Below are positions 13,264-15,190 of a DNA stretch of 32,799 bases, in pieces. The notes beneath the pieces are model-generated. The model saw nothing but the letters and a program-made list of their open reading frames with translations, was not told the origin of the DNA and did not search any database. The stretch is from a candidate division FCPU426 bacterium (GTDB lineage Bacteria; Oederibacteriota; JAAXVQ01; JAUVAV01). The stretch is taken from NCBI GenBank assembly GCA_016929575.1, contig JAFGIQ010000291.1, positions 1 to 32,799 on the forward strand, written 5' to 3'. The position numbers were made by a program, and so were the translations under genes. Each line of letters begins with the position of its first letter. Within the stretch, counting starts at the first letter, position 1.

Positions 13264-14952
13264 CTACTGTTGCCGGTTTAAAGCACTGATTACTGCTTTG
13301 ACTGCGGCCGTGCTTATGCTGTGGTCAATGCCGACGCCAAAAAATGAACGATTGCCATCGGCGCAAATTTGCACATAGGCCACTGCTTCAGCATCCGACC
13401 CGGACTTGAGGGCGTGCTCACTGTAATGAAGCAATGCGAAAGTTCCGAATCCCCGGCAATTAAGCCCGTTCATCAAAGCGTCCACCGGACCGTTTCCTTG
13501 CGCTTGGATGTGATGACGTTTGCCATGAACCAACATGTCGGCAGCGACGGACGTGGTCTCGCTACTTCCGTGATCTTCGGCAGGCCGGGAATGCACTGTG
13601 AATGATTCCAGGCAATAGGGCTTGTTTGTGGCCAAGTAGGCATCACGGAAACAGTTGAAAACTTCCTGAGAGGAAATTTCATTCCCCGACGCTTCAGTGC
13701 GCGCTTGGACGATTTGACCGAATTCGGGCTGCATATTTTTGGGAAGGGAAAACCCCCAGTCTTTTTCCAGGATAAACGCCGCGCCGCCTTTCCCGGACTG
13801 GCTGTTGATGCGGATGATGGATTCATAACTGCGGCCCACATCACGCGGATCAATGGGCAGATAGGGTACCTCCCACTTTGCACCATCCCCCTTGCTTTGC
13901 TGGGCCTTCATCCCCTTGTGAATGGCATCCTGGTGGGAACCTGAAAAAGCTGTGTAAACCAGGGCACCGGCATACGGGTGGCGGTCCGGGACAGGCATGC
14001 GGGTATATTTCTCATAGGCAGACTTGATCGTATCAATGCAGGAGAAATCCAATTCAGGATCCACTCCCTGGCTGAACAGATTCAAGGCCAGTGTGATCAA
14101 GTCCGCATTGCCGGTACGCTCGCCGTTTCCGAACAGGGTGCCCTCGACGCGTTGCGCTCCGGCTAAAAGTGCCAGTTCAGCCGCAGCCACGGCTGTTCCG
14201 CGGTCATTGTGGGTATGCACGCTCAGGATGGCTGCATCCGGCTGGCCCAAATGCCGGCCAAACCATTCAATCCGGTCAGCATACACATTGGGCGTGCTCA
14301 TTTCCACAGTGGCAGGGAGGTTGATGATCATGGGATCGTTTTTATCCGGCTGCCAGATGTCCATGACCGCCCGGCAGATATCCAGGCCAAAGTCCAGCTC
14401 GGTGCCGGTAAAACTTTCCGGAGAATACTCCAGCTGCACCGTGGTTCCAGGAAGCGTATTCCGCATGTTTTTTATGCAGGACGCACCCTCCTTGGCCATG
14501 CGCACGACCTGCTGTTTGTCCAGGTTGAATACGACCCGGCGCTGCAGCGCGGAGGTTGAGTGGTACAAATGCACAATAACCCGCTTGGCGCCCTGCAAGG
14601 CGGAAAAAGTTTTTTCGATCATGGGAAGGCGTGCAGGAGTCAATACCTGGATGACCACATCTTCAGGAATGCGTTTTTCCTCTATTAAACTGCGGATGAA
14701 GCCGTACTCCACGGTGGATGCGGCCGGAAACCCGACTTCTATTTCCTTGAAGCCGATGGACAGCAGCAACTCGAACATGGCGGTTTTTTCCGCCAGCTTC
14801 ATGGGTGTGCGCAGGGCCTGATTGCCGTCGCGCAGATCCACACTGCACCAGATCGGCGCCTGCCGTATGGTTCGGTCCGGCCAGGTCCGTTGGCTTAAGG
14901 CGACAACCGGGTAGGGGGAATAACGGTGATAAGGCATATGTTTCTTTTTCAT
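13264..14952 (-). CDS. leuA: 2-isopropylmalate synthase
   Basis: CSVDLRDGNQAL, IEVGFPAASTVEYGFIR, LSVHTHNDRGTAVAAAELALLAGAQRVEGTLFGNGERTGNADL, FSGSHQDAIHKG. Start set at the ATG at 14952 (MKKKHMPYHRY), preceded by AGGAGG; the longer ORF to 15033 crosses an intrinsic terminator. Confidence 0.93.
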   Translation of the reverse strand: MKKKHMPYHRYSPYPVVALSQRTWPDRTIRQAPIWCSVDLRDGNQALRTPMKLAEKTAMFELLLSIGFKEIEVGFPAASTVEYGFIRSLIEEKRIPEDVVIQVLTPARLPMIEKTFSALQGAKRVIVHLYHSTSALQRRVVFNLDKQQVVRMAKEGASCIKNMRNTLPGTTVQLEYSPESFTGTELDFGLDICRAVMDIWQPDKNDPMIINLPATVEMSTPNVYADRIEWFGRHLGQPDAAILSVHTHNDRGTAVAAAELALLAGAQRVEGTLFGNGERTGNADLITLALNLFSQGVDPELDFSCIDTIKSAYEKYTRMPVPDRHPYAGALVYTAFSGSHQDAIHKGMKAQQSKGDGAKWEVPYLPIDPRDVGRSYESIIRINSQSGKGGAAFILEKDWGFSLPKNMQPEFGQIVQARTEASGNEISSQEVFNCFRDAYLATNKPYCLESFTVHSRPAEDHGSSETTSVAADMLVHGKRHHIQAQGNGPVDALMNGLNCRGFGTFALLHYSEHALKSGSDAEAVAYVQICADGNRSFFGVGIDHSISTAAVKAVISALNRQQ

Positions 14953-15005
14953 GGCTGCAATCCTCCTCGGAATCAGCCGCGCCGCGGGCAAGGCCGGCAG
15001 CCGTA

Positions 15006-15046
15006 GAAAAAGAAAAAGCCACCAGCCTCGCAAGAGACGGTGGCTT
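15006..15046 (-). terminator. Intrinsic terminator (attenuator) in the leuA leader
   Basis: On the minus strand: AAGCCACC-gtctcttgcgaggct-GGTGGCTT followed by TTTCTTTTT; 8-bp perfect stem plus T-tract. Confidence 0.85.
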
Positions 15047-15065
15047 GGGTTTGTTCTATTCGCTC

Positions 15066-15152
15066 TTAGCGCACACCGCTCCCGTGGCTTGGTCCCAGAA
15101 GGGACAAGCTAAGCCCCAGCAGCAAGTTGTGCAGCAACGCATGCATGATCAT
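15066..15152 (-). CDS. Leucine-rich leader peptide (leuL-type), MIMHALLHNLLLGLSLSLLGPSHGSGVR, or starting at MHALL (15146)
   Basis: 9 Leu codons clustered upstream of the leuA attenuator terminator; stop at 15066-15068, followed by the terminator hairpin. Confidence 0.8.
   Translation of the reverse strand: MIMHALLHNLLLGLSLSLLGPSHGSGVR
15087..15109 (-). promoter_or_regulatory. Leader hairpin (1:2) overlapping the Leu codons
   Basis: Minus strand GCTTGTCCC-ttct-GGGACCAAGC, one-nt bulge; overlaps the 3' end of the leader peptide ORF. Confidence 0.6.
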
Positions 15153-15161
15153 AGTGCTGAT

Positions 15162-15190
15162 AGTATAGCACTGCACGGCGGATTTGTCAA
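15162..15190 (-). promoter_or_regulatory. Sigma-70-type promoter of the leuA leader
   Basis: Minus strand TTGACA (15190-15185), 17-bp spacer, TATACT (15167-15162). Confidence 0.75.

Follow-up and report, generated by a model that had tools for sequence, protein, structure and literature searches.

Upstream of the long-type leuA gene in the window (the whole stretch of DNA analysed here, 32,799 nt of contig JAFGIQ010000291.1 from a candidate division FCPU426 bacterium) lies an element that we read, going by sequence, as a ribosome-mediated attenuator sensing leucyl-tRNA and controlling leuA as a monocistronic gene, with a probability of about 0.88. This reading is the best-supported one because the window holds the complete anatomy of such a switch, because the arrangement recurs ahead of long-type leuA in several distant phyla, and because both of its hairpins are conserved in the Chlorobiaceae. 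In kind the element is ordinary, being of a known class of switch; it is nearly leaderless and has no Rfam family. A textbook switch is hereby placed in a phylum represented by only 45 genomes in our set.

All features of the element lie on the minus strand. The gene itself (13264-14952) encodes a long-type 2-isopropylmalate synthase of 562 aa (TIGR00970, 724.8 bits against a cutoff of 697.4; NF002991, 816 bits), and direct reading placed its ATG at 14952 and its Shine-Dalgarno sequence, AGGAGG, at 14967-14962, just where a first-pass annotation of this DNA had put them. The promoter described in that annotation was likewise recovered, by direct reading and by a consensus scan: a sigma-70-like TTGACA-17-TATACT (15190-15162, 11/12 consensus matches), with the -35 at 15190-15185, the -10 at 15167-15162 and a TG ahead of the -10. 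It is the sole promoter-like site that the scan returned between 14500 and 15600. The first in-frame ATG of the leader, at 15152, lies 9 nt past the -10, and transcription is expected to start roughly 3-6 nt ahead of this ATG. Upstream of the promoter, between the divergent genes, a small hairpin followed by a T-run was also seen (15256-15240, minus strand).

The leader ORF (15152-15066, stop codon at 15068-15066), MIMHALLHNLLLGLSLSLLGPSHGSGVR, is rich in codons of the amino acid that leuA serves to make, with 9 Leu among 28 aa, all written with common codons (CTG, TTG and CTT). The first-pass annotation had found this Leu-rich ORF in its correct place and had started it at 15146; that alternative ATG is preceded in frame by the one at 15152, which is the most likely start and gives the 28-aa length. 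Neither start has a Shine-Dalgarno sequence, in contrast to the AGGAGG of leuA. We searched for a promoter matching at least 10 of 12 consensus positions, 5-16 nt before the start of an ORF in which 12 codons include 6 or more Leu. Dinucleotide shuffling of the 400-nt upstream region yielded this combination in 0 of 3,000 trials, a figure that serves only as a guide since the thresholds were chosen after the element had been seen. Elsewhere in the window no second such combination was found on either strand. The leader frame stays open back to 15659 and thus falls within a mechanically called 197-aa ORF (15659-15066), so that the leader could be the 3′ end of a real gene; we consider this very improbable, as the ORF has no Pfam match and runs antisense to a DUF4405-like gene, on which grounds it is probably not a gene, and the promoter interrupts its frame.

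Folding of the leader RNA predicted three hairpins. The predicted protector, hairpin 1:2 (15125-15076, -24.4 kcal/mol), pairs the Leu codons at 15125-15111 with 15090-15076 and encloses GTCCC/GGGAC; folding thereby extends the hairpin that the first-pass annotation had placed over the Leu codons. An intrinsic terminator with a T-tract (hairpin 3:4, 15046-15006, -20.3 kcal/mol) stands ahead of the structural gene, its arms being AAGCCACC (15046-15039) and GGTGGCTT (15023-15016) and its T-tract reaching to about 15006. This hairpin, evident in direct folding and located as first annotated, was not listed by a consensus terminator scan, probably owing to the bulged base of its stem. The candidate antiterminator would be mutually exclusive with the terminator, whose 5′ arm it shares: as originally proposed, GAGCGGTG (15081-15074) can pair with CACCGTCTC (15042-15034), within a longer segment 2 in the last leader codons (GGGAGCGGTGTGC, 15083-15071) and a segment 3 common to antiterminator and terminator (AAGCCACCGTCTC, 15046-15034). 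The duplex of segments 2 and 3 was estimated at -14.9 kcal/mol, which for the window alone is not significant (p 0.08).

In the free leader fold, hairpin 1:2 sequesters most of the antiterminator arm. With the upstream RNA assumed to be occupied up to roughly the last Leu codons, the nascent transcript instead paired 15083-15071 with 15044-15034, at -12.4 kcal/mol. This predicted antiterminator is weaker than the terminator (-20.3 kcal/mol), and once the terminator's 3′ arm was included the terminator won in every case folded, so antitermination must be kinetic, a matter of timing. Such kinetic antitermination is the expected logic of this class of attenuator, but the energies should not by themselves be taken as proof of a switch.

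For the transcription start, leader translation, stalling and leucine response of this organism, we infer the following course. Transcription would begin just a few nucleotides ahead of the leader ATG, and the ribosome would load onto a nearly or fully leaderless RNA with no Shine-Dalgarno sequence. With leucine plentiful, the ribosome would reach the stop codon and cover segment 2, allowing the terminator to form. With leucyl-tRNA short, it would stall on the Leu codons, most usefully those at 15125-15096, and hairpin 1:2 would open; segment 2 could then pair with segment 3, blocking the terminator so that leuA is transcribed.

The modest statistics of the fold (z -2.16 for the whole leader, a small gain over shuffles) and of the antiterminator taken alone would also suit a plain promoter and terminator without regulation, or a small RNA, with the Leu-rich ORF arising by chance. 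This we judge unlikely, in view of the absence of the combined promoter and Leu-rich ORF from all shuffles and of the recurrence of Leu leaders before the same gene. Applying a leader rule blind to promoters, we found a Leu-rich candidate leader at 44 of 83 long-type leuA loci, a count that takes in the short leaders of Actinobacteria and a number of weak candidates with just 4 Leu. An alignment-based contig scan had supplied 80 loci and a single-protein contig scan none; the upstream regions of these 80 were cut at the aligned position instead of the true leuA start, and their distances to leuA are approximate. A sigma-70-like promoter scoring 8 or more, with its end 5-10 nt ahead of the leader start, was found at 13 of the 44, where shuffles gave 1.3 (sd 1.1); because the rule takes the nearest ATG, it puts the window's leader at its second ATG and the window falls outside these 13. 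A Shine-Dalgarno-like motif accompanies just 2 of the 44. Among the 16 loci with clear terminators, pairing between the leader end and the terminator's 5′ arm was jointly above shuffles (Fisher p 2e-4, approximate, the loci being related), the pairing sites mostly falling in the 20 nt that precede the leader stop.

The Chlorobiaceae provided a set in which the candidate attenuator could be followed: long-type leuA was present in 61 of the 61 genomes searched, and a Leu-rich leader, roughly 19-30 aa long, stood at each of the 30 loci examined. In an alignment of 28 of these sequences, the terminator was paired in 89.0% of cells (28-63% when slid) and the antiterminator structure in 83.5% (44-66% when slid), though the structure came from a member of the alignment and is to that extent favoured over the slid controls. 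A counterpart of segment 3 is common to both conserved hairpins, and helix 2 of the antiterminator structure is a local hairpin within the loop. The first-pass annotation had suggested a covariation alignment of relatives as a check, and here the outcome was divided: beyond the conservation of both hairpins, covariation scores were matched in 0 of 500 shuffles for the terminator and 2 of 500 for the antiterminator, yet the number of antiterminator cells changed on both sides was not above chance (243 of 500). Overall, the covariation in the two hairpins is moderate. A covariance model built from the Chlorobiaceae, in which the terminator is the only paired structure, found a locus of the window's own phylum (L002, in genome G013) at E 6.8e-7, and matched the window weakly but at full length and in the expected place (15091-15009, E 0.011, a rough value); the latter match could reflect a similar terminator instead of descent. 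The model also picked up a similar element in genome G069 (L142, minus strand 4262-4165, E 1.4e-4), ahead of a methyltransferase-like gene that is itself upstream of long-type leuA; just upstream of it, TTGACA-17-TATATT is followed 6 nt on by the ATG of a leader, MMHVKALQTRRLQIAAWLTIAVAEGGSS, with only 3 Leu.

Enterobacterial leu attenuators have, ahead of leuA, a Leu-rich leader ORF, alternative hairpins and an intrinsic terminator; the window element has counterparts to these, its antiterminator being a candidate one. The first-pass annotation had likened the two, and we retain the mechanism, though not the likeness of family or enzyme: no Rfam 15 leader family, nor a T-box, reached a match in the window (at the gathering score for the leader families), the only Rfam match among 20 related loci was a tRNA, and the gene is of the long type. 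From the classical leucine attenuators, enterobacterial leu and Campylobacter jejuni leuL, the element further differs in being nearly leaderless, in using common Leu codons and in preceding a single gene. C. jejuni LeuL, likewise a Leu-rich leader before leuA, has the same length, 28 aa (PMC3847290, PMC11955535), with rare Leu codons reported. Leaders that begin at the transcription start without a Shine-Dalgarno sequence are known for Streptomyces lividans leuL1, leuL2, ilvL and trpL (PMC8079986), Corynebacterium diphtheriae ilvB (PMC5784534) and Sinorhizobium meliloti trpL, the last with Ribo-seq support (PMC10117765). Of these, leuL1 precedes leuA as in the window, though with no typical terminator, leuL2 stands before leuS, and the others sense other amino acids. 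The 5′ UTR of the leader would indeed be very short, as first noted; in light of these precedents and of its recurrence in relatives, it should not be called unusual.

In the actinobacterial LEU element, too, an ORF containing a Leu-codon run precedes leuA, there likewise of the long type, and a pseudoknot has been proposed in which the Leu run pairs with the leuA Shine-Dalgarno sequence, with no obvious terminator. By analogy, the window's leader might be translated and exert control at the level of leuA translation or by way of a pseudoknot, its terminator hairpin being secondary, and mutations in the Streptomyces coelicolor leuA leader did not fit classical attenuation. We give this little credence, since in the window a strong terminator with its T-tract, some 50 nt ahead of leuA, leaves the leuA Shine-Dalgarno sequence outside it, and since terminators go with many non-actinobacterial leuA leaders. 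We found no published description of such an arrangement for long-type leuA outside Actinobacteria, in literature thinly covered for subscription journals and comparative attenuator surveys.

The recurrence suggests that a leucine switch without a Shine-Dalgarno sequence accompanies long-type leuA across phyla. Only four of the 45 genomes of the phylum have long-type leuA, and the genomes searched included no second species of this genus. In a FastTree tree the window's copy groups neither with the same-order copies nor with that of G013, so separate acquisition is likely, though the branch of the window's copy is long and arises at an open fork. One same-order copy (G006) has no such Leu leader, and in the other (G007) the contig ends too near leuA for the leader to be judged; in G013 the -10 ends 6 nt before the leader ATG. 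A joint spread of attenuator and gene from one phylum to another is plausible, and we tentatively entertain, at somewhat less than even odds, the idea that long-type leuA travels with a family of leucine attenuators that is nearly leaderless, uncatalogued and shared between phyla. If so, the gene would bring its own leucine switch into each new host, a switch that would need just the host's RNA polymerase, ribosomes and leucyl-tRNA.

The same genome carries a second, short-type leuA on contig C83, close behind other genes; we saw no attenuator or Leu leader before this leuA. It is followed by an ORF for an HTH-cupin-like regulator and, as the reading frames suggest, a leuC-like ORF (L111, L122); the promoter of the regulator ORF is near-leaderless to a 4-codon ORF. 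A genome-wide habit of near-leaderless starts was unsupported: promoter matches numbered 26, 30 and 19 where the ATG lay 5-11, 12-18 and 25-31 nt away, respectively. Among these matches a Phe-rich and a Cys-rich ORF were considered as further amino-acid leaders and set aside, no recognisable biosynthesis genes following them; the Cys-rich one (MMLCKYFMMHTCCFLQVC..., contig C165, 4907-4968, L129) lies ahead of an apparent extracellular solute-binding protein.
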